DNA from: a virus
DNA length: 28,511 nt
Direction: 5' to 3' (one strand)
Virus record (IMG/VR): IMGVR_UViG_3300010215_000001
Span: 1 to 28,511 of that record
The first letter of the stretch is position 1; each line of letters starts with the position of its first letter. A program made the position numbers and the translations under genes. Below the pieces are notes generated by a model that saw only the letters and a list, made by a program, of their open reading frames with translations, ran no database searches and was not told the origin of the DNA. Shown here one piece after another: positions 17,857 to 28,511 of the stretch.

Positions 17857-18108
17857 TTATGAAAATAAATATGCTGCAACACCTACCCCTGCACCTATAA
17901 CTGCGCCTGCGGGATTTCCTCCGCTAATAGCAGCCCCTGATGCTGCTCCACCTAATCCTGCTTGTAAAACTCCGCCCGCTGTTTTTGGTGCGGCTGTTGT
18001 CACAGTGTCTCGTCCTTGCATCATATTGGCAGTGGTGCTTGCTGCTGAATTCATTGCACTTGTTGCGTTCCCCATGGGACTGGGGATAGCTGTCGTATAG
18101 TCTCTCAT
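17857..18108 (-). CDS. Glycine/alanine-rich internal virion protein
   Basis: 83 aa. Low-complexity N-terminal part (NATSAMNSAASTTANMMQGR), then a G/A-rich hydrophobic end (AGLGGAASGAAISGGNPAGA, VIGAGVGVAAYLFS) with repeated small-xxx-small spacing, as in membrane-inserting ejection proteins. TAATG-coupled to the 181-aa gene and 13 nt before the 611-aa gene, so one ejection module. Role inferred from composition and position. Confidence 0.6.
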   Translation of the reverse strand: MRDYTTAIPSPMGNATSAMNSAASTTANMMQGRDTVTTAAPKTAGGVLQAGLGGAASGAAISGGNPAGAVIGAGVGVAAYLFS

Positions 18109-18653
18109 TATGCATTCCCCCCAATAGCTGGAATAGCTGTTGCAGCAGTAGCGGCACGTTGAAAGTTTTCAGTCTGCGCATTTGTACGGGCATTCGTCCG
18201 AGCCGAAGCAATAGCCTTGGCTGTGTCAAGTCCCGTGTTCTGCATAGATTTCATATATAAAGCGCTGTTAGGATTTATGCCTGATCTTGAGGCCGTCCGC
18301 CTGTTCTGCTCCAGAGCCCCTTTCATAGACTGTACTACATCTGCTTTTGCCTGATTCATCCGATCCGCAACATTAACACCATCTATAGCTTGAGTATAAA
18401 ACTCGCTTGCCGCTTGCTGTTGCTGGGGTATCAAAGCAGTGTTAGCCGCAATGGTCTGTTTATTTAGTTCGGTTTGCCCAGGTAATAGTTCCATATTGGA
18501 TTCTAACTGAGCAGTCTCATATGGCTGATATGCGCCCTTGTAATATTTATAATATTCATTAGCCATTACTTGTTGCTGTTCAGCAATTTTTGCCATTCTG
18601 TCGTTATACTCTTTGTCTATAGTAGTTGTAGATGAGCTGCCACCTTTACCCAT
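18108..18653 (-). CDS. Internal virion protein, T7 gp14-like position and composition
   Basis: 181 aa, mostly helical, glutamine/alanine-rich: MGKGGSSSTTTIDKEYNDRM, then coiled coil at about 18-60 (MAKIAEQQQVMANEYYKYYK). The segment SGINPNSALYMKS and the C-terminal repeats of AxTNART (ARTNARTNAQTENFQRAATA) are familiar from podovirus internal core proteins. It is the first gene of the three-gene ejection module, overlapping the GNAT-like gene by 8 nt. Confidence 0.7.
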   Translation of the reverse strand: MGKGGSSSTTTIDKEYNDRMAKIAEQQQVMANEYYKYYKGAYQPYETAQLESNMELLPGQTELNKQTIAANTALIPQQQQAASEFYTQAIDGVNVADRMNQAKADVVQSMKGALEQNRRTASRSGINPNSALYMKSMQNTGLDTAKAIASARTNARTNAQTENFQRAATAATAIPAIGGNA

Positions 18654-19191
18654 TTAAAACCTCCTCTCTTGTCACATAGCTCAACACTGCGTCTTCTGAC
18701 CTATCACCTTCATGGATCATTCTGAAAGCATTAGGCAGTATTGCCTTAATTTTCATACCTGCTCTTTGGAGGCACTTTATACTGGCTGTATAACTAGCAG
18801 GCGTGAAACCTATTAGACCATCTAGGGTGTATTCACCCTCTTTATTTCTAATTTCCATTATCATCTCAAATCCAAGTTTTATAGTTCGAAAGATGTCTTT
18901 CTTTAATATGTCAATGAACAAGCACTGATGTATCTGAGCTGTCCGATGTTCGAATGTGTTCAACCAAAATATTCCAGCGACTACACCGTCACACAACACG
19001 ACCCACATAAGGTTTTCTCTGTGTTTAAAGCATGAGACAAATTCATCGACAGTATTAACACTGCCGTCATAGAAGGTTTTATGGAGCAAACCTCTGGAAG
19101 ACATAGAATTGAATATATCAACAAGATCTGAATCACGCAGGGTACGTATGCCATCTTGTTCGGTATATGGGTGAAACGTAATTTTTCTCAT
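18646..19191 (-). CDS. GNAT-like acetyltransferase-fold virion-associated protein
   Basis: 181 aa. It begins MRKITFHPYTEQDGIRTLRD, has a beta-hairpin core (MWVVLCDGVVAGIFWLNTFE), helix IKLGFEMIMEIRNK, and GFTPASYTASIKCLQRAGMK near the end, matching the A-to-motif-B layout of GNAT folds. The acetyl-CoA loop (Q/RxxGxG/A) is not recognisable, so it may be structural rather than catalytic. Proteins of this type recur between tail and ejection genes in P22-like phages. The start codon is preceded by only a weak site. A shrunken second copy lies at 21231-21371. Confidence 0.65.
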   Translation of the reverse strand: MRKITFHPYTEQDGIRTLRDSDLVDIFNSMSSRGLLHKTFYDGSVNTVDEFVSCFKHRENLMWVVLCDGVVAGIFWLNTFEHRTAQIHQCLFIDILKKDIFRTIKLGFEMIMEIRNKEGEYTLDGLIGFTPASYTASIKCLQRAGMKIKAILPNAFRMIHEGDRSEDAVLSYVTREEVLNG

Positions 19192-19330
19192 ACTGTAATC
19201 ATATGAAAATATAAAGAGTTACGTGTTGCTATTGGGGCTATTTGGACGGAAATATAAACGTAAGACAATTTAAGCACATAGTCTTCCATGTTTAAGCAAT
19301 TCGTAGCCAGTAACATGCTTCAGGGTTGCA

Positions 19331-19389: not shown

Positions 19390-19776
19390 ATGGAAAAAGT
19401 AGTTTTACTCACGATTCTTATACTGTCTTTAATAATTACTGCTTGCGGAGGCGTAGGTAGCGATTCAGTAGAAATGCCTATACATGTTAATGCCACATAT
19501 GCGGAGTGCTCTGGATGCATCTCCAAAATAAATACTTATAATTTTTTACAAGATCAAATCGGCACCTTTAGTGTTGTGATATACGATTCAACATATGATG
19601 CAACTATTACAATAAACAAAAGCTACCCTATCCAATATACTGGAAATATCGTTTTCGTTGGAGATACCTACAGTGTTGCATACGACAAATATTCAGGTTT
19701 ATTCACAATAAACAGGTTTGAAGATGAGGATGAAGGTAGATTTGCTGCAAACGGCACTGATATCATACAAAGATAA
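19390..19776 (+). CDS. Phage-encoded lipoprotein, moron candidate
   Basis: 128 aa from ATG 19390, chosen over the long frame from 19288 because GGAGA lies 7 nt upstream and a signal peptide begins there. Residues 1-18 are MEKVVLLTILILSLIITA; C19 closes a lipobox (I-T-A-C), followed by Gly-Gly with no Asp at +2, so outer-membrane sorting is likely in a Gram-negative host. The mature part has a C-x2-C (AECSGCISK) and beta-rich segments (FSVVIYDSTYDATITI). Opposite strand to the late genes and ends flush with the convergent tail-tip gene. Lipoproteins of this kind can block phage receptors (superinfection exclusion) or alter the lysogen surface; inferred. Confidence 0.7.
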   Translation: MEKVVLLTILILSLIITACGGVGSDSVEMPIHVNATYAECSGCISKINTYNFLQDQIGTFSVVIYDSTYDATITINKSYPIQYTGNIVFVGDTYSVAYDKYSGLFTINRFEDEDEGRFAANGTDIIQR

Positions 19777-21234
19777 TTACATATTAAACGTTTGAACCTC
19801 AATGTCTAACCTATCAACCCTAGAATAATTATCGCCAGTCGTTGAGTCACCTCTAACCCTAAAACGAATAGGCACACCGCTAGCTGTAATGCTTACACTT
19901 GCCCTCAAAATAACACCTGCTGGTGAAGAGGTAACTGATTTAATTGTCACCCATGAGGCTCCGTTATTGATTGAATATTGTAAATATACGGTACCTGAAA
20001 CAACAATAGAACCTACAGAACCTTTTACATGGAATGTTTGTGTACGCTTAGCTACGCGACTTGCATGATACAATTCTGAACCATAGTCATATGCATAAAA
20101 AGGTGACGGAGTCTCAAGATTCGCAATTGTATAATCGACACCTGCACCGTAATATAAATAATCTGCCTTGTTGATAAACAAAGGACAATATTTTTCAGAT
20201 GCTGATTCTGAGCGAATCTTAAAGTCACCTACATTAAAATATGAAGATTTTATCTCAGCCGCTTCAACAGTGCCTCTCACTGTGACATTGTTAAATTCGG
20301 CTGACCCATTTTTATTGATATTCCATCCTGTAGAACCTGATGAATAGTTATTTGACCTTATATAGTCTTTAATATGTGCATTTGTAATTACTCCTGTTTT
20401 AATATTTGCAGAATTGGCAATTATCTCGTTTGTGCCAATATGCTCCGCTGTAATCGCATTTGCATCTATCATACGAGCCACTACAGCCCCATCAACGAAC
20501 ATATCGGCATCAATGCCTACGGCTGGCCTCCCGTCAATCTGGCCAACCACAAAGACTTTCTTACCTTCTTCAAGTCCTTCTGTCGGCTGTATCACCTGAA
20601 ATGAATCAGCCACTATTTTGTGTGTCGTCTGATATTTATCATCGTCCATAAGCTGTGCAAGAAGGTCGTTTATGGTCTCATCAACAATGGCGGACGCAAG
20701 CATACCGCCTTGAACAAGTGTGGGATGCCATACAGAGTATTTACCATAGCTATTTACGGAACGTATCCAGTAGTAATAATCCGACCTTACGTTTACATAG
20801 CCATGCTCAAATTCTTCAATACCTTTATTCACGTACCCTACTAACTCAGCATCACTAAAACTCTGGCTGCCTTTGGATGCCCACACCTCTATATGTGTAA
20901 ATTTCCCGTCTGCTGGATCTTCCCATGTGAGCTTATTCGCAACGACGCGCTGTAATATCTCAAGTCCTCTAGGCGGATTCGGAACAGGACCATTGCTGTT
21001 TACAACATTATCTGAGAAATCATACGTCACAGGAGTATCTATTATCTTCGTATTAAGTCCTAATGATTCAAGATCCCTTTTAGACACAACTTTATCGAGT
21101 TCATTTCCTCGTGTCCCTGCCATTACCTCTATTGCTTGCTTAATAGCCTCAAGAGTCTTCCTTGACGCTGGAGAAGCATCAGAAGGCACAGGGGGGATTA
21201 CAGGTATCTTTGCAGCTCTGGCATTATTGCTCAT
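19777..21234 (-). CDS. Tail-tip/central-fibre protein, copy 2
   Basis: 485 aa. Residues 1-320 are nearly identical to copy 1 (21582-23114): KIPVIPPVPSDAS start, fibronectin-III-like section (VPNPPRGLEILQRVVANKLT), then a J/DUF1983-like section (IHKIV-type strand, VFVVGQIDGRPAVGIDADMF, NAITAEHIGTNEIIANSANI). A repeat unit GSTGWNINKNGSAEFNNVTV ends the shared part. The C-terminal 165 residues are unique: PLFINKADYLYYGAGVDYTI and a beta-sandwich-like end with RVDRLDIEVQTFNM. The starts of both copies form ATGA overlaps; here the partner is the shortened GNAT frame. Probably alternate receptor-contacting tips. Confidence 0.75.
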   Translation of the reverse strand: MSNNARAAKIPVIPPVPSDASPASRKTLEAIKQAIEVMAGTRGNELDKVVSKRDLESLGLNTKIIDTPVTYDFSDNVVNSNGPVPNPPRGLEILQRVVANKLTWEDPADGKFTHIEVWASKGSQSFSDAELVGYVNKGIEEFEHGYVNVRSDYYYWIRSVNSYGKYSVWHPTLVQGGMLASAIVDETINDLLAQLMDDDKYQTTHKIVADSFQVIQPTEGLEEGKKVFVVGQIDGRPAVGIDADMFVDGAVVARMIDANAITAEHIGTNEIIANSANIKTGVITNAHIKDYIRSNNYSSGSTGWNINKNGSAEFNNVTVRGTVEAAEIKSSYFNVGDFKIRSESASEKYCPLFINKADYLYYGAGVDYTIANLETPSPFYAYDYGSELYHASRVAKRTQTFHVKGSVGSIVVSGTVYLQYSINNGASWVTIKSVTSSPAGVILRASVSITASGVPIRFRVRGDSTTGDNYSRVDRLDIEVQTFNM

Positions 21235-21249
21235 ATAAATGCCTCTTCT
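20282..21249. repeat. ~970-bp direct repeat, copy B (5' part of tail-tip gene)
   Basis: Aligns without gaps to 22162-23129 at a constant offset of 1880. Nearly identical except for scattered changes and one diverged patch (about 20394-20462). Homology stops sharply inside the coding region at the tip junction and at GAAGAGG just upstream of the start codon. Confidence 0.9.
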
Positions 21250-21371
21250 CTGACCACATAGCTTAAAAAAACATCCTCTTTTATATTTCCTTCGTGAAAC
21301 ATACGAAATGTATTAGGCAGAGAACGGATATCCTCTTTTTCGGTGTATGAGTGAAATATTATACTTCTCAT
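21231..21371 (-). pseudogene. In-frame shortened GNAT-like gene (46 codons)
   Basis: The frame reads MRSIIFHSYTEKEDIRSL then PNTFRMFHEG, and ends SYVVREEAFI. The first 18 and the next ~26 residues match the two ends of the 181-aa GNAT-like protein (MRKITFHPYTEQDGIRTL, PNAFRMIHEG, SYVTREE). About 135 codons of the core have been deleted in frame. The last residues (EEAFI) come from the end of the nozzle gene, marking the duplication join. Its stop still overlaps the next start as ATGA, so translation may remain coupled although no enzyme is made. Confidence 0.8.
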
Positions 21372-21581
21372 ACTGTAATCATATGAGAATATAAAGAGTT
21401 ACGTGTTGCTATTGGGACTATTTGGACGAAAAAATAAGAAAGTTTGATATTGAGATTAAGCTTTTACCTATTCAACAATTTCAAACTTAAGCGGTTTGGC
21501 AATATACGGGTTTTTATTTAAAAAATCTTCTATGTATCGATATTAGACTGTGTCTGTAAGATCTGCTGTATCCCAGCTTCC
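21372..21581 (-). other. Duplicated GNAT leader and debris
   Basis: Bases 21369-21430 repeat the sequence before the intact GNAT-like gene (19189-19250) with few changes. The remaining ~150 bases contain a short minus frame without start (YRYIEDFLNKNPYIAKPLKF, then EIVE and stop), probably the end of a lost gene. No lipoprotein copy is present here, unlike the matching place at 19.4 kb. Confidence 0.55.
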
Positions 21582-23114
21582 TTATTTTTGGACTTGTGAA
21601 ATATGCACATATCCAGAACTGCCAGTTATTCTTCCTCCTGATGTCGCATCATCAACTATATAAAGATCGACATACATTCTTCCAGTAACATTTGAAGATG
21701 GAATATATACATATGAACCGTTAAGTGTACCATATCCAGTATTTGAAACAGAATAATACTGGTAAGCTGTATAGAATGATATTGAACCTATTCTTACACG
21801 AAACCTATAGTGAAAATTTCCAGCCAATATATCATGTGTAAAAGACAATTCAATTTTTGCATTTATAGGATAGCCTGCTAAATATGTTCTTGATGTTGAA
21901 CCTGTAAAAACAGCTAAATCTCTTGCACCTGTTGACATGGTTAAAGATAGTGATGGTGAACCGTCATATGCTTGAATAGTTATTTCTGGTATTTGCGCTA
22001 AGTTAAATTCTCCTATCACATTAAGATTGGCGGTATTTATGTTTGCTGCTGCAATAGTGCCTCTAAATGTGGCGTTGTTAAATTCGGCATTACCTGTTTT
22101 TTCTATTTTCCAACCTGACGTACCCAATGCGTAATTAGTTGATTGTAATGTAGTTCGTATAGTGACATTGTTAAATTCGGCTGACCCATTTTTATTAATA
22201 TTCCATCCTGTAGAACCTGATGAATAGTTATTTGACCTTATATAGTCTTTAATATGTGCATTTGTAATTACTCCGTCTTTTATGTTTACGGAGTTTGCAA
22301 TTAATTCATTAGTTCCAACATGCTCAGCCGTAACTACATTTGCATCTATCATACGAGCCACTACAGCCCCATCAACGAACATATCGGCAGCAATGCCTAC
22401 GGCTGGCCCCCCGTCAATCTGACCAACCACAAAGACTTTCTTACCTTCTTCAAGTCCTTCTGTCGGCTGTATCACCTGAAAAGAATCAGCCACTATCTTG
22501 TGTATCGTCTGATATTTATCATCGTCCATAAGCTGTGCGAGAAGGTCGTTTATGGTCTCATCAACAATGGCGGGCGCAAGCATACCTCCCTGAACAAATG
22601 TTGGATGCCATATAGAATATTTACCATAGCTATTTACAGACCTGATCCAGTAGTAATAATCCGACCTTACGTTTACATAGCCATGCTCAAATTCTTCAAT
22701 ACCTTTATTCACGTACCCTACTAACTCAGCATCACTAAAACTCTGGCTGTCTTTGGATGCCCACACCTCTATATGTGTAAATTTCCCGTCTGCTGGATCT
22801 TCCCATGTGAGCTTATTCGCAACGACGCGCTGTAATATCTCAAGTCCTCTAGGAGGATTCGGAACAGGACCATTGCTGTTTACAACATTATCTGAGAAAT
22901 CATACGTCACAGGAGTATCCATTATCTTCGTATTAAGTCCTAATGATTCAAGATCCCTTTTAGACACAACTTTATCGAGTTCATTTCCTCGTGTCCCTGC
23001 CATTACCTCTATTGCTTGCTTAATAGCCTCAAGAGTCTTCCTTAACGCTGGAGAAGCATCAGAAGGCACAGGGGGGATTACAGGTATCTTTGCAGCTCTC
23101 GTATTATTGCTCAT
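21582..23114 (-). CDS. Tail-tip/central-fibre protein, copy 1
   Basis: 510 aa, paralogue of copy 2. Shared N-terminal 320 residues, then its own tip. It carries two copies of the repeat unit, GSTGWNINKNGSAEFNNVTI and GTSGWKIEKTGNAEFNNATF, where copy 2 has one. Such units are typical of the shaft after a J-like domain. The unique end includes PEITIQAYDGSPSLSLTMST and a beta-rich domain ending GRITGSSGYVHISQVQK. The start overlaps the nozzle stop (ATGA). Probably the original position of the gene. Confidence 0.75.
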   Translation of the reverse strand: MSNNTRAAKIPVIPPVPSDASPALRKTLEAIKQAIEVMAGTRGNELDKVVSKRDLESLGLNTKIMDTPVTYDFSDNVVNSNGPVPNPPRGLEILQRVVANKLTWEDPADGKFTHIEVWASKDSQSFSDAELVGYVNKGIEEFEHGYVNVRSDYYYWIRSVNSYGKYSIWHPTFVQGGMLAPAIVDETINDLLAQLMDDDKYQTIHKIVADSFQVIQPTEGLEEGKKVFVVGQIDGGPAVGIAADMFVDGAVVARMIDANVVTAEHVGTNELIANSVNIKDGVITNAHIKDYIRSNNYSSGSTGWNINKNGSAEFNNVTIRTTLQSTNYALGTSGWKIEKTGNAEFNNATFRGTIAAANINTANLNVIGEFNLAQIPEITIQAYDGSPSLSLTMSTGARDLAVFTGSTSRTYLAGYPINAKIELSFTHDILAGNFHYRFRVRIGSISFYTAYQYYSVSNTGYGTLNGSYVYIPSSNVTGRMYVDLYIVDDATSGGRITGSSGYVHISQVQK

Positions 23115-23129
23115 ATAAATGCCTCTTCT
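22162..23129. repeat. ~970-bp direct repeat, copy A (5' part of tail-tip gene)
   Basis: Partner of 20282-21249. Two long near-identical repeats 1.88 kb apart in the same orientation are a ready substrate for RecA-dependent deletion or re-amplification. Confidence 0.9.
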
Positions 23130-24715
23130 ATCGAATTAGCTAGTATCACTGAATGGACCGAGTCATTACCGACAAGCTCTATCTCCCAAACCTTTGAACG
23201 AAATCCACCAGGTAACCTAAATGGATCCGAGTTGACAATTGTCTTTGAAAATTTAAGCTCTCCGTCAGCATATATTTTAAACTCCAAACCTGTGTCTCCA
23301 TCAAAATCTGCATCAACACGAGCTACGCTAAAATTAATTGCCTGCGGAAGCTGATACTTCTTCGATCTCCAAGTGTATGTAAGCTTGTCACCGCTGTTGA
23401 AATCATAAAGATAATAGTTTGCGCCTGACTTGCATAAAAGCCTTATAACATCAGCGGACGTATCTATAAATCCATCATAAATTGCATCTATGCCAGCTAA
23501 TATAAAATCAGTAAAAAAACCTGTATCGAGATCATATATAAAGCCAGTATTACTTTCTTTAAAAAAACCGACATAACGGCCTTCATGATAAAAGGCGAGG
23601 ATGTTTTCTATATCATATTGCTGCCACTGATCCCGACTTATTACGCCATCAGTTATCAGCTTTCCTCCAGTATTTGTGTCGCCTATCAGAAATAGACCGT
23701 CAGGGGATGAATAGATAACAGCAAAACCCGTGCTGACTATGCTACGTTTAGAAGTACATGCCTGCTTATGAGAAAGTGGATTCAGCGTAGCCGCCGCTGG
23801 ATCTATAGATGTTGCGATATATGGTAAATCTTTTGTGAGTACAACAACATAATCACTAAAAAAGCCAGTCCCAACTATATCGCTGTTGAGTTGCTGAATG
23901 TAGTCAGTAGGAAAAGCATAAGGTACAAATGGTTCTGAAAAATATACATATCTACCAGACCATCCCATCATGACACCATTGGCAACCATAGCAAGTCCGA
24001 CAAGGTCATCAGGCGGATTATCCCAAGTCTCAGTAGGCAGAACTTCTGCCAGATTTCCTTCATCAACAGAATCAGTATACGTTGTGGTATCGCTTGCCAC
24101 TTCTTCTACCATTTGATATTCGGCTGACGAAGAACCGCTTAAAAGCCTGTATATGCGAAATTTCTCTATTGTAAGGTTTGGTATTACTGGGAGAATAAAG
24201 TTGCTCAGAGTAACACCCTGCCCTTCGTACAGGTCTATAACAGTTGTAGATTCACACGGTCTTGATTCTTCTCCGAACTCAGTAACATAGGTGTAAACAT
24301 ACGCTGTGGTTCTTTCAATATTTTCAGACGTCTTTGTTCCATTGATCTGAATATTTAAAGATTCCGCAGGAGCAGCAACACCAAGCCGTCTATGGTCAGG
24401 GTCTAAAGTTTGATTCGTTTGTTTGGGATACACACCATCTGTATAGAATATGCGTCCATCATCGTCATTAACAAAACTGGAAACGACATCAACATCCCCA
24501 CTCCATTTAAGGAGCGTTCCGTCTTCCAGCTGGAAAACAGACCGTATATCATCAGAGCCGAGAGCAATACCATCAGCAACACTCTTTAGAGGACGTAGAT
24601 CTCCACTGTCTAAGTAACAGTTAACAGCCTCCTGCGCAAAGTCGTTGGGAAGCTTATACGCTGAAACTTGAGGATTTTTCCCTTTGAAACGTTCGGATGG
24701 TATTAATATTCTCAT
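23111..24715 (-). CDS. Tail nozzle / tubular-tail-like protein
   Basis: 534 aa. N-terminal strand MRILIPSERFKGKNPQVSAY, then LPNDFAQEAVNCYLDSGDLR and PLKS, the classic opening of podovirus tail proteins that follow the adaptor. Two internal fibronectin-like sections (about 105-240) include RTTAYVYTYVTEFGEESRPC. The motif GWSGRYVYFSEPFVPYAFP (about 256-274) and repeated beta-blades suggest a propeller, as in nozzle proteins. GAGG lies upstream of ATG 24715. It forms the short tail tube's lower part and contacts the tail-tip protein encoded next. Confidence 0.8.
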   Translation of the reverse strand: MRILIPSERFKGKNPQVSAYKLPNDFAQEAVNCYLDSGDLRPLKSVADGIALGSDDIRSVFQLEDGTLLKWSGDVDVVSSFVNDDDGRIFYTDGVYPKQTNQTLDPDHRRLGVAAPAESLNIQINGTKTSENIERTTAYVYTYVTEFGEESRPCESTTVIDLYEGQGVTLSNFILPVIPNLTIEKFRIYRLLSGSSSAEYQMVEEVASDTTTYTDSVDEGNLAEVLPTETWDNPPDDLVGLAMVANGVMMGWSGRYVYFSEPFVPYAFPTDYIQQLNSDIVGTGFFSDYVVVLTKDLPYIATSIDPAAATLNPLSHKQACTSKRSIVSTGFAVIYSSPDGLFLIGDTNTGGKLITDGVISRDQWQQYDIENILAFYHEGRYVGFFKESNTGFIYDLDTGFFTDFILAGIDAIYDGFIDTSADVIRLLCKSGANYYLYDFNSGDKLTYTWRSKKYQLPQAINFSVARVDADFDGDTGLEFKIYADGELKFSKTIVNSDPFRLPGGFRSKVWEIELVGNDSVHSVILANSIEEAFI

Positions 24716-24727
24716 TATATCACGCCT

Positions 24728-25264
24728 CTATTTTTCATCTTTTGGTGTAATTGCTCTATCACCAAACCACCAGACGCAAGCTGTCACAGTCGTAAAAACA
24801 ACTGATTTGATAGTGTAAACAATCATATCTGCTATTGTTTGCGGCTCTGTATATCCATCAAGTTCACCATCCATTAGCCAATTAAAAAGCAATATTGTCA
24901 TTGCCATCAGGCAAAGTGTCAGAAATGGTCTAAATAACGACTTTACTGCGTCAACCCATTTATATGATGCCCTTATCATAACATCCGCATTTATTGAAGT
25001 ACTAAGACCTTCATATGAACCATGTGTACGCAATTGTTGAAGTTGTGCCGCCATGATTTCATTTTCATGTTCATCTTCTTGCCTGTCACGCTGAAGCTCT
25101 AAGGCGAATAGATCTTTTTCGTGAGACCATTTCGCTTTTTCAAAGCTGATTTCTTGTCTGCGTTTAAAATATTTAAACACACCGCCAAGCATTGAGCCTG
25201 CAAGACCAAGCACACCACCACTAGCTGCGCTGCTTGCAACTCCTAATATATTAGCCCACTCCAT
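24728..25264 (-). CDS. Three-TM holin-like protein
   Basis: 178 aa. Hydrophobic segments at about 8-32 (ASSAASGGVLGLAGSMLGGV), 110-130 (RPFLTLCLMAMTILLFNWLM) and 147-168 (YTIKSVVFTTVTACVWWFGD) with a charged helical stretch (33-75: KRRQEISFEKAKWSHEKDLF) between. This is the layout of 3-TM holins of gene-transfer-agent type. It overlaps the endolysin gene by 22 nt, which supports a lysis role (timed membrane opening). Alternative: a tail membrane protein. Its first nine codons (MEWANILGV) recur at 27336. Confidence 0.7.
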   Translation of the reverse strand: MEWANILGVASSAASGGVLGLAGSMLGGVFKYFKRRQEISFEKAKWSHEKDLFALELQRDRQEDEHENEIMAAQLQQLRTHGSYEGLSTSINADVMIRASYKWVDAVKSLFRPFLTLCLMAMTILLFNWLMDGELDGYTEPQTIADMIVYTIKSVVFTTVTACVWWFGDRAITPKDEK

Positions 25265-25653
25265 CGCTTATAACCTCCTGGGGTCCACCACCTACGTGAT
25301 CTCCCCGTATCTCTGTGTGTAAAGGTCACATAGTAACCTCTGCCTGTAAATCCAGCTTGCTTGCAAGCATCATTCAATTTTGCTAGATCATGACCAACTG
25401 ATGAAAAATCTATAGCAATCATCTTATGTATTGAAAGAGGTTTGCCCCCTACTCTTACATTATGAAAACGGCATCTATGAGCCGAATTGATATATACCGC
25501 TTTGCCCATATAGTTACGGACAAACTGACACATATCAAATACGTCTTCGTCATACCAAAACTCACCACAGCATGGACAAGCAAACTCTATAGGACTGAAA
25601 TTTAACCAACGCTCCTTATCCCACTCAACGAGAGAGTAATGAGGTATTAGCAT
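25243..25653 (-). CDS. M15-family peptidoglycan peptidase (endolysin)
   Basis: 136 aa from ATG 25653, which follows the previous stop as TAGAATG; an ATG at 25677 is possible. It cleaves peptide cross-bridges of the wall. The M15A zinc site is visible: H at SIHKMIAIDF (H and D ligands) and the distal H in YYVTFTHRDTG. INSAHRCRFHNVRVGG precedes it and RRWWTPGGYKRW closes the fold. The conserved G before A/I-x-D in relatives is absent. ACPCCGEFW near the N-terminus may be a small zinc knuckle. It overlaps the holin-like gene. A defective partial copy is at 27315. Confidence 0.8.
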   Translation of the reverse strand: MLIPHYSLVEWDKERWLNFSPIEFACPCCGEFWYDEDVFDMCQFVRNYMGKAVYINSAHRCRFHNVRVGGKPLSIHKMIAIDFSSVGHDLAKLNDACKQAGFTGRGYYVTFTHRDTGRSRRWWTPGGYKRWSGLIY

Positions 25654-25654
25654 T

Positions 25655-25888
25655 CTATTTCCCGTCTCGTATTTCATCTATTCTTGCGTGAATACGCGTT
25701 ATATCACTGTGTACTTGATTATGTTTTTGCTGACATTCTTTCTTTGTTGTGTAGTCTCTTGCAAGAATAATATTTGTCTCTGTCTGGCTCTTGCTTAGAG
25801 CATTGATAGACCTCCATATCGGGATGAGAACAAGGCTTGCGATACTTCCCAAGGTTTGTATTATATCTGATATCTCAATAGTCATCAT
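25655..25888 (-). CDS. Small single-TM protein of lysis cassette
   Basis: 77 aa. One hydrophobic helix (residues 9-28: IIQTLGSIASLVLIPIWRSI) is followed by a charged coiled coil (KSQTETNIILARDYTTKKEC, HSDITRIHARIDEIRDGK). The start ATGATG overlaps the previous stop (TGA). It lies immediately before the endolysin, as antiholins, second holins or Rz-like spanins do; which of these it is cannot be decided. A copy truncated after the helix lies at 27496-27588. Confidence 0.65.
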   Translation of the reverse strand: MMTIEISDIIQTLGSIASLVLIPIWRSINALSKSQTETNIILARDYTTKKECQQKHNQVHSDITRIHARIDEIRDGK

Positions 25889-26184
25889 ACGAGCTCTTGT
25901 TTCGGATATTTGTCTTTGATGTCCGCTATGGTTTCCGCCCACTTGTTTGTTTTGTTCACAGAGTCCCAATACAGCATATCAAGCTGCTCTGCGAGTGTAG
26001 GATACTCCGCTTGGCGTAGCTCTGTATATGTTGGTTCTGTATCTAGATACATTTCTGGCGTATTGCCTTCGGCTATCCATGCCATAATTAATTGATAATC
26101 AGGATTACTTTCTATTTTAGGAACATCTGTAGCGTTATTAACTCTGTAATAATCACCAAAATCTGTAACTTTATTAATATTCAT
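25885..26184 (-). CDS. Tail-fibre-assembly / XkdW-like protein
   Basis: 99 aa from ATG 26184, with AGGAGGT upstream; a longer frame to 26286 lies inside the fibre gene and is rejected. The central motif MAWIAEGNTPE and the end YPTLAEQLDMLYWDSVNKTN, then IADIKDKYPKQ are standard for small proteins encoded after phage fibres and thought to aid fibre folding or attachment. 10 nt after the fibre gene. Confidence 0.7.
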   Translation of the reverse strand: MNINKVTDFGDYYRVNNATDVPKIESNPDYQLIMAWIAEGNTPEMYLDTEPTYTELRQAEYPTLAEQLDMLYWDSVNKTNKWAETIADIKDKYPKQELV

Positions 26185-26194
26185 GATTGACCTC

Positions 26195-27250
26195 CTAAAG
26201 TTCTGATGAAATAACCGCATGGAACAAACAGCCGTATTTTGTTGTCGTAGTATCTGTATAATAAAATGTCCTATCTTTAGAATCATAAGCTGAAGAGCGT
26301 GTCAACTTCTGGTCTGTAATATATGTGCCTGATACTGATACATATAATGAACATTTACCTACATTACCAACACTGTCATAAACAGTTATACTAGGAACAG
26401 ATCTCATGCCTTCATGATCTATTTGAATAACTTCTGTACCTGTGTAAGAAGCAGAGTTCTTTTTAGTAAGAATACCTGCAAGGGTTAAAGTTCCTTCTGA
26501 AACTCCAGAGTATGTTGTTCGAAAATATCTCATACATTCCGTAAGCTCGTTTGCCTCATCAATAGGCACATAAATGTCGTTGTAACCAAATTTGACGTTA
26601 GAGATCCTAACATCACCAGAGATGTTGACGGCTTTACCTGTGAAGGACGAAGCTCCTGCATATTTAAGTATCTGAAGGTGCAAGCACGAGCCATCACCTA
26701 TTGTCTTACCAACGATTGACGGTATATCAACATTGATGCTAACCCTTGTTTTTGTAGTGGACACATTAATATAGTCGTTATGGGCGACCACATCTGCACT
26801 GCCGCCGACACCGAAGTACTGCTTAAGGTGCACAAGTGCCTGACCGTCAACATCGCTTTCGATATCAAAAGATAAGACACAAGACTGACTAGCGAATTTA
26901 CGCACGTTATCTATTTTCTGACGAACGCCAAAGTATCCGCCGCCAGTATCACCGGATATCCCTCCCCTAAGTTCGAGAGAGTATTTGTTATCATTCTGAA
27001 CGATTTCTCCGTATGCATTTGTAGAACCACCGTCAAGGTATGCTACTAAAGACCATCTATCACAAGGATACCCCTGCGTGATGCCAGCTACAGCACCAGC
27101 TACCCGTTGATTAATAATCACATTTTCGTCCAACGGATTAATTATTGCGTTGTAAGATGCTTTTGCGAGTTCGTTTTCATCATACCCATGAATAGTACTT
27201 GCATCATTTATAGTCCTTAGTTCCTCTATGTTATCTCTAACTATGCTCAT
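26195..27250 (-). CDS. Tail fibre 2 (receptor-binding)
   Basis: 351 aa. Short N-terminus (MSIVRDNIEELRTINDAS) without the Mtd_N-type anchor seen at 1-269. Shared shaft ASYNAIINPLDENVIINQR; carbohydrate-module-like section around CDRWSLVAYLDGG; block SSFTGKAVNISGDVRISNVK and FGYNDIYVP, nearly identical to the fibre piece at the right edge. The last ~110 residues (from about 245) are unrelated to that piece and form the variable tip. ATG 27250 overlaps a 29-codon frame by 4 nt. Confidence 0.75.
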   Translation of the reverse strand: MSIVRDNIEELRTINDASTIHGYDENELAKASYNAIINPLDENVIINQRVAGAVAGITQGYPCDRWSLVAYLDGGSTNAYGEIVQNDNKYSLELRGGISGDTGGGYFGVRQKIDNVRKFASQSCVLSFDIESDVDGQALVHLKQYFGVGGSADVVAHNDYINVSTTKTRVSINVDIPSIVGKTIGDGSCLHLQILKYAGASSFTGKAVNISGDVRISNVKFGYNDIYVPIDEANELTECMRYFRTTYSGVSEGTLTLAGILTKKNSASYTGTEVIQIDHEGMRSVPSITVYDSVGNVGKCSLYVSVSGTYITDQKLTRSSAYDSKDRTFYYTDTTTTKYGCLFHAVISSEL

Positions 27251-27336
27251 TTAGGGTTCCTCTCTTTTATCTCAGCAACCTTTTCACGCCACGCAGTCAA
27301 ATCTGGTGTAACTCCTAATATATTAGCCCATTCCAT
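27247..27336 (-). CDS. 29-codon frame: holin start fused to new tail
   Basis: MEWANILGV, identical to the start of the holin-like protein at 25264, runs into TPDLTAWREKVAEIKERNPK and ends in an ATGA overlap with fibre 2. The tail resembles the end of small fibre-associated phage proteins. It is probably a fusion scar left by duplication; a functional peptide is not excluded. Confidence 0.45.
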   Translation of the reverse strand: MEWANILGVTPDLTAWREKVAEIKERNPK

Positions 27337-27533
27337 AGTTTATAACCTCCTGGGGTCCACCACCTACGTGATCTCCCCTTATCTCTGTTTGCAAAGGTCA
27401 CATAATAACCTCTGTCTGTAAATCCAGCTTGCTTGCAAGCATCATTCAATTTTGTTAAATCATGACCAACTGATGAAAAATCTACAGCGATCATCTTATG
27501 TATTGATAGACCGCCATATCGGGATGAGAACAA
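27315..27533 (-). pseudogene. 3' remnant of M15 endolysin gene
   Basis: From LSIHKMIAVDF to the stop, the frame matches the intact endolysin (offset 2072, about 90% identity). Everything upstream of the first zinc ligand is missing; the distal ligand His is replaced (FANRDKG instead of FTHRDTG). Codons before about 27507 are out-of-frame sequence from the small TM gene. Inactive. Confidence 0.8.
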
Positions 27534-27588
27534 GGCTTGCGATACTTCCCAAGGTTTGTATTATATCTGATACCTCAATAGTCATCAT
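27496..27588 (-). pseudogene. Truncated copy of small TM lysis protein
   Basis: 30 codons: MMTIEVSDIIQTLG, then the TM helix to WRSINT and stop. Nearly identical to residues 1-29 of the protein at 25655-25888. The coiled coil was lost by the deletion that joined it to the endolysin remnant at ATTGA. A free TM helix could still be made. Confidence 0.75.
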
Positions 27589-27752
27589 GCCCCCTCTGGT
27601 TTTACATACTGTTCAATAACACCGCCGTCAGCTATAAACTTACTAACCTCTTCATTCTTTTCAATTTCGCCTGAACTGCAACAAATATTACCATTATCAT
27701 AATACGTTACGTATCCCGTATCTGTTAGTTTCACACTTATAAGTTCTCTCAT
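27585..27752 (-). CDS. Small fibre-accessory protein
   Basis: 55 aa. MRELISVKLTDTGYVTYYDN, a CC pair, then EEVSKFIADGGVIEQYVKP, a motif common in small proteins encoded after phage fibres. TAAATG from the fibre stop with GGAG upstream; a 4-nt overlap follows with the TM remnant. It occupies the same slot as the 99-aa protein downstream of fibre 2 but is unrelated in sequence. Confidence 0.6.
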   Translation of the reverse strand: MRELISVKLTDTGYVTYYDNGNICCSSGEIEKNEEVSKFIADGGVIEQYVKPEGA

Positions 27753-28466: not shown

Positions 28467-28511
28467 TCAATTTTCATTTTTTCCCTTAAAGTGCCATATA
28501 CGATCTGCATA

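Follow-up and report, generated by a model that had tools for sequence, protein, structure and literature searches.

Why should one phage genome carry two tail-tip genes side by side, nearly identical in their 5′ halves and unrelated in their 3′ ends? The question is raised by IMG/VR virus record IMGVR_UViG_3300010215_000001, a 28.5-kb record without a completeness estimate. Its positions 1 to 28,511 (hereafter the window, the whole stretch of 28,511 nucleotides that was analysed) carry a P22/phiSG1-like terminase, portal, capsid and tail nozzle gene. The two genes in question, both on the minus strand, are tip gene A (21582–23114, 510 residues) and tip gene B (19777–21234, 485 residues). A preliminary description of the window had reported this tandem from the sequence, and its observation is confirmed with refinements: both open reading frames (ORFs) are open at these coordinates, and the near-identical 5′ halves, put there at about 970 bp, correspond to a direct repeat of 968 nt with 95.35% identity and no gaps (E=0). 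In the first copy (22162–23129, minus strand) the 5′ half of A is joined by the final nozzle codons; the second (20282–21249, minus strand) consists of the 5′ half of B together with nozzle-derived ‘EEAFI’ codons and a Shine-Dalgarno sequence. At the protein level the close agreement described for residues 1–320 extends across residues 1–325 (93.5% identity), and the first 156 codons differ by only one synonymous and four non-synonymous changes. The tips are indeed unrelated, with no significant similarity between the last 155 residues of A and the last 160 of B (2.3 bits in phmmer with filters off).

The point at which the two proteins part had been placed directly after the sequence GSAEFNNVT, and this has to be moved. 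Protein A contains an additional 31-residue ‘GWxIxxxGxAEFNN’ unit that B lacks (22068–22160, minus strand, approximate limits), reading GWNINKNGSAEFNN and then GWKIEKTGNAEFNN. Beyond GSAEFNNVT, B is still similar to A past the second of these units (71.6% identity between 22003–22142 and 20219–20355), for some 20 residues up to an RGTxxAAxI...F motif, such that B residues ∼294–339 align with A residues ∼325–371. In B the true border follows RGTVEAAEIKSSYFNVGDF, whereas in A it follows FRGTIAAANINTANLNVIGEF.

Profile searches match both proteins to the lambda J family and to the PF09327 (Phage_Tail_Tip) domain (A, 3.2e-18 and 66.3 bits; B, 2.7e-14 and 53.6 bits; cut-off 22), which was tested in A, B and the two closest related loci, L012 and L174; A also matches phrog_31, central tail fibre J (5.2e-27), and the N-terminal half shared by the two proteins is fibronectin type III (FN3)-like. 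These significant matches to J-like tip proteins, above the curated cut-off, occur at the tip position of the tail module, directly after the nozzle gene. That gene (23111–24715, minus strand, at the P22 gp10 position) matches phrog_511 (2.9e-122), and its profile matches a solved podovirus chain, 8jov_A (3.6e-129); it lies directly upstream of A, whose start sits on the nozzle stop codon.

Between A and B lies a recombination scar that the preliminary description had overlooked. Comparison by blastn with the ends of the nozzle gene and of the downstream gene, together with translation, resolves it as a 46-residue ORF (21231–21371, minus strand) made up of the first 18 and the last ∼24 codons of a GNAT-like gene followed by the nozzle C-terminus ‘EEAFI’, with a stop codon that overlaps the start of B; 134 codons of the GNAT-like gene have been deleted in frame. 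The intact version of that gene stands downstream of B (18646–19191, minus strand). Self-comparison identified a second direct repeat, whose copy between A and B (21309–21437, minus strand) covers the beginning of the GNAT-like gene with the sequence just 5′ of it and is 84% identical over 129 nt to the copy at the intact gene (19129–19257, minus strand). The ∼24 codons that follow match the end of the intact gene at 69%, and the last codons of the scar, its Shine-Dalgarno sequence and the start of B match the nozzle end and the start of A at 95% over 40 nt. The anatomy of the scar therefore indicates that a second copy of the downstream GNAT-like gene once lay between A and B. Its inner joint falls at CTGC(C/G)T(A/G)AT and its outer joint at about AGAAGAGG, both resting on ∼4–10 nt of homology. 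That both joints are in frame was considered as a sign of selection and set aside, since this is expected by chance in about 1 case in 9, which is too weak to use.

The short homology at these joints bears on the prospect that the contig is a chimera chaining the tip regions of two strains. The record lacks a completeness estimate, and the copies differ by strain-like divergence; however, joints of this length are short for an assembler overlap, a further in-frame deletion lies inside the diverged GNAT copy of the scar, and the fibre locus of this genome bears a similar scar. We regard such an artefact as very improbable.

Divergence along the 968-nt repeat is uneven. By offset the copies differ by 1.2% (0–484), 14.5% (484–560), 3.0% (560–792), 31.2% (792–856) and 0.9% (856–968), so that 31 of the 45 mismatches fall in two patches (offsets 484–560 and 792–856); a cluster of 20 mismatches within 65 nt was reached in none of 10,000 permutations. 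This mosaic shows that homologous recombination has worked on the repeat, as the preliminary description had anticipated. The divergence of the patches (15–31%) resembles that of the GNAT pieces (16% and 31%), against 1–3% in the remainder of the repeat, and we therefore take 15–30% as the distance between the parental sequences and the 1–3% tracts as later homogenisation.

The reading we favour, with a probability of roughly 60%, is that the locus combines a native tip gene, B, with a foreign tip allele, A, the two having been stacked by short-homology recombination and then partly homogenised. As the scar suggests, recombination at a short homology close to AGAAGAGG, between two phages or their replicating DNA, would have linked two 3′ ends, one of the GNAT-like gene that followed foreign tip A and one of the nozzle gene that preceded native tip B, yielding in one step the order nozzle, tip A, first GNAT copy, tip B, GNAT-like gene. 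The first GNAT copy then collapsed in frame at the short repeat CTGC to the 46-codon ORF, which still ends over the B start codon. Homologous recombination, the probable agent of the mosaic pattern, would finally have re-homogenised most of the 5′ halves and left the old divergence in patches.

Whether relatives carry such a tandem was surveyed with the nozzle gene as anchor, in 9 annotated phage records, 80 viral contigs and 80 genome contigs. A tip gene directly follows the nozzle gene in most of them. At 153 of the surveyed loci an ORF occupies the tip position, and in none of these, nor in L174 (154 loci in all), was a second similar ORF present within the locus; some loci end shortly after the nozzle gene, where a second copy could go unseen, and a few represent one virus present in two collections. 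The identical test, applied to the window, detects B from A. As the tandem is absent from the surveyed relatives, it looks like an individual event rather than an evolved system.

The closest loci, L012 and L174, each contain one long tip gene (903 and 915 residues, respectively) followed by a GNAT-like and a gp7-like gene; L012 also occurs as L092, a contig of a Denitrovibrio metagenome-assembled genome (MAG). The tip of B is related to that of L012 (33%, 4e-14), the end of which is unrelated to the A tip, and in the 260–280 patch the sequence of B, NAITAEHIGTNEIIANSANIKTG, resembles that of L012, QSITATHIGTNEIIANSANIKDG, where A has NVVTAEHVGTNELIANSVNIKDG. We infer that B is the native allele because its tip matches, and its 260–280 patch resembles, those of L012.

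Tip exchange is itself the rule at this locus among close relatives. Nozzle identity reached at least 85% in 79 non-identical pairs. Over the final 150 residues of their tip proteins, 37 of these pairs had no detectable similarity, 13 had similarity that was below 45% or short, and 29 had at least 45%; tips were thus unrelated or very different in 50 of 79. Loci L105 and L107, for example, are 97% identical in the nozzle and 98% in the first 200 residues of the tip protein, and L086 and L091 98.5% and 91%, with no tip similarity in either pair, while L067 and L069 (98.7% and 99%) have tips that are 32% identical. In four pairs (L105/L107, L104/L105, L098/L110 and L067/L069) the exchange border follows a GTxYAxxIxGD-type motif, comparable to the point at which A and B part.

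These data also bear on a more ordinary history, in which the tip and GNAT-like genes were duplicated in tandem within one lineage and one tip was later replaced through ordinary allele exchange between phages, which leaves the second copy as a transient relic of no special role. The joint looks like the junction of a tandem duplication, exchange of tips is common in the family, and the absence of the tandem from all relatives fits a short-lived state. Yet this history needs one event more than a joint between two alleles, the GNAT pieces differ from the intact gene by 16–31%, which is beyond what is expected of a recent duplicate, and the two tip ORFs, each unbroken, have identical start signals. 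We consider it unlikely.

Several points do weigh against the stacking of a native and a foreign allele. The order of events was deduced, and an identical map would result if a tandem duplication came first and one tip was replaced afterwards. No close relative, single-allele parent or recombinant was found in the collections searched, from which very near records may be left out. The AlphaFold models of A and B, built on a seven-sequence alignment, were too poor to use (predicted local distance difference test scores of 34 and 41), and a single seat for the tip on the nozzle is assumed by analogy only. Viral contigs yielded no close relatives in pattern searches with the shared half, the nozzle, either tip or the exact start region, and neither did genomes when searched with the shared half; tblastn searches of both tips against 50,697 phage records were likewise without a hit. 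Within the phylum to which the Denitrovibrio MAG belongs, a search of 51 genomes matched only that MAG.

A and B have the same Shine-Dalgarno sequence, GAAGAGG, 7 nt before the ATG, and each start overlaps the stop of an open frame upstream in the same ATGA. No terminator-like site was found between them in a consensus scan, and promoter and terminator scans returned no more sites than shuffled sequences. Given the shared ribosome-binding site and coupled start, neither copy looks silent.

This argues against the proposal, made in the preliminary description, that one gene is an archived alternative tip, activated when the 968-nt repeats recombine. Such a phase switch would be consistent with long direct repeats that lead into unrelated 3′ ends and with mosaic divergence within the repeat, and crossover between paralogous tail-spike genes of phage S117 swaps receptor-binding domains (PMC11414711). 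But besides the start signals of both copies, crossing over between direct repeats removes a tip irreversibly, and such one-way loss fits an archive less well; moreover, no recombinase, invertase or reverse transcriptase match was found among the genes scanned, and the arrangement is not conserved in relatives. We judge an archive improbable. The earlier interpretation is thus partly supported: a common anchor with alternative tips, exchange in relatives and a recombining repeat all stand, the archive does not, and although a repeat-based archive had been offered as a different mechanism, swapping of this kind has already been seen in the recombination of receptor domains between S117 tsp4 and tsp5 (PMC11414711). 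Two known switching devices were also rejected. For an invertible segment of the Mu gin/gix type, the window contains no paired inverted repeats of at least 40 nt (shorter sites are possible), and the genes scanned gave no invertase match; for a diversity-generating retroelement (DGR), they gave no reverse transcriptase match, and the differences in the 129-nt repeat are not adenine-specific.

If both genes are expressed, their products could instead be specialised paralogues, both always needed, at different positions in the virion (for example, one axial and one lateral). Both ORFs are intact, A has the extra 31-residue unit, the lengths differ, and in phage DEV the J-like fibre gp56 is held laterally on a separate plug (PMC12892993). 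The near-identity of the N-terminal halves, synonymous sites included, nevertheless implies the same attachment surface, and all surveyed relatives manage with one gene; we judge this arrangement improbable as well.

For a native tip stacked with a foreign allele, we would instead expect A and B both to be made from the late operon and to compete, through their common N-terminal anchor, for the same nozzle seat. Virions would then have one tip or the other or, possibly, both together in the same particle, and crossovers in the repeat could also reduce the pair to one gene that ends in either tip. In a more far-reaching version, which we put forward tentatively and think unlikely as a whole, the tandem would be stable: competition for one seat would give a clonal burst two receptor specificities, recombination in the repeat would keep the anchors identical and rarely yield single-tip descendants, and a lipoprotein encoded beside B would block re-infection through the receptor of B.

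The putative lipoprotein gene is a 128-residue ORF on the plus strand (19390–19776), tail-to-tail with the stop of B. A pattern scan detected a signal peptide with lipobox ITAC in it (MEKVVLLTILILSLIITAC); it has no PHROG or Pfam match, and a lipoprotein-like neighbour of the tip gene was found for only 1 of 128 relatives' tips (L130, Photobacterium damselae). It is a candidate superinfection-exclusion gene, a guess made from its position. The Cor and Llp superinfection-exclusion lipoproteins are likewise small lipoprotein-like genes among or beside tail genes (PMC9586334, PMC11893012), but they have no sequence match to this ORF and are likened to it by position.

The remaining neighbours follow the order of related phages. 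The intact GNAT-like gene, at the P22 gp14 position, is 34% identical to its L012 counterpart (2e-24); its label, GNAT-like or DUF2824-like, derives from relatives' weak matches only, the L012 homologue having DUF2824 and GNAT matches below cut-off. Next in the conserved order is a gp7-like virion protein gene (18108–18653, minus strand; 39% to L012, 4e-34; 43% to L174). In P22 the tail needle gp26 lies between the gp10 nozzle and gp14, and here, as in L012 and L174, the tip gene lies between a gp10-like nozzle and a gp14-like gene. No tail-needle family was among the profile matches of A and B, which would be analogues of gp26 by position only. No RNA families or tRNAs were found in the window.

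A second tandem is present at the fibre locus (25235–27602), where a fibre gene is followed by a collapsed holin/endolysin copy and then by a second fibre gene with chaperone, holin and endolysin. The collapsed copy (27307–27602) is 93% identical to the intact copies at 25235–25438 and 25802–25902, and the repeat at its deletion joint, TCTWTCAAT, is imperfect and 9 bp long. The presence of two scars of this type in a single genome suggests that the lineage acquires receptor genes beside its old ones. The parallel falls short of proof, as the first fibre gene appears to be split by the contig ends: its N-terminus is at 269–3 and its C-terminus at 28511–27753 of the linear record, and a stop codon interrupts its frame near 28468. 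Judging from this, the record seems to be a circularly permuted genome that is nearly complete and lacks a small segment.

Repeats and paralogues of other kinds were seen among the relatives. L049, whose tip gene is close to those of Aeromonas prophages, was considered as a tandem array and rejected, being instead one gene of 2165 residues (L049:11584–18081) with three internal repeats of ∼800 nt (86–91%). Vibrio phage 1F273_PE002 has large repeats inside its 1644-residue tip gene and, just upstream of the nozzle gene, Avd and reverse transcriptase annotations indicative of a DGR (L004:4645–6296). Burkholderia phage BcepIL02 has four annotated tail-fibre paralogues (64–74% DNA identity) upstream of the nozzle gene (L007:2496–6903).

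Several known systems resemble parts of this locus. The window holds two intact genes with a common 5′ end and different 3′ ends in one genome, the criterion for multiple receptor-binding proteins of the Ackermannviridae kind. In that family tsp1–4 likewise provide several receptor-binding genes per genome, with conserved 5′ ends and differing 3′ receptor domains, and recombination in the 5′ ends swaps the tip; in an engineered S117 given a tsp5 with shared N-terminus, the tsp4 receptor domain was replaced (PMC11414711). It is thus already known that a phage can have several receptor-binding genes that share an anchor, and that such genes recombine. However, the Ackermannviridae spikes hold distinct seats in a branched complex and their cluster is conserved in the family, whereas the tandem described here pairs two alleles of a gene that relatives have only once, is confined to one genome and includes a scar left by the downstream gene. 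The single-copy J-like tip genes that follow the nozzle gene in L012, L174, Vibrio phage 1.205, Stx phage ST2-8624 and Aeromonas prophages share with A and B their position, FN3-like N-terminus and exchangeable C-terminus, but these related podoviruses have one tip copy in 154 of the 154 loci compared. In the podovirus DEV, gp56 is a J-like tail-tip protein that is part of the receptor-binding fibre (PMC12892993), and the J-like chain of 9ze4, an entry named in that paper, matches the corresponding Stx phage gene (1.8e-12).

Duplication of tail-fibre domains alters host range in the Xanthomonas phages OP1, Xp10 and Xop411, and T4 is cited in the same report (PMC2248197). Those phages likewise tie tail-gene duplication, with short repeats at its borders, to host range, but they repeat small internal domains within one gene, whereas here a whole gene occurs twice with different ends (A also having one extra internal unit). 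The orphan C-terminal cassettes of polymorphic toxins, such as Rhs and contact-dependent inhibition (CDI) systems, are alternative 3′ ends, homologous to the full gene and exchangeable by recombination (PMC3482391), and are usually incomplete and silent, whereas A and B are complete and have start signals. A search of open-licence papers found no description of a tandem in which two alleles of an otherwise single-copy tip gene flank a scar of the downstream gene.

The tandem is plausibly a route to a broader or switchable host range, rather than a dedicated switching machine. If both tips are made, one genome would yield two kinds of virion with no enzyme to switch between them, a matter relevant to changes of host in phages. 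Should the arrangement be only transient, its scar would still capture a step of tip exchange that is normally invisible, in which two alleles were joined at a few bases and then homogenised, at a locus where the survey shows tips to be freely swapped across a broad group of podoviruses.

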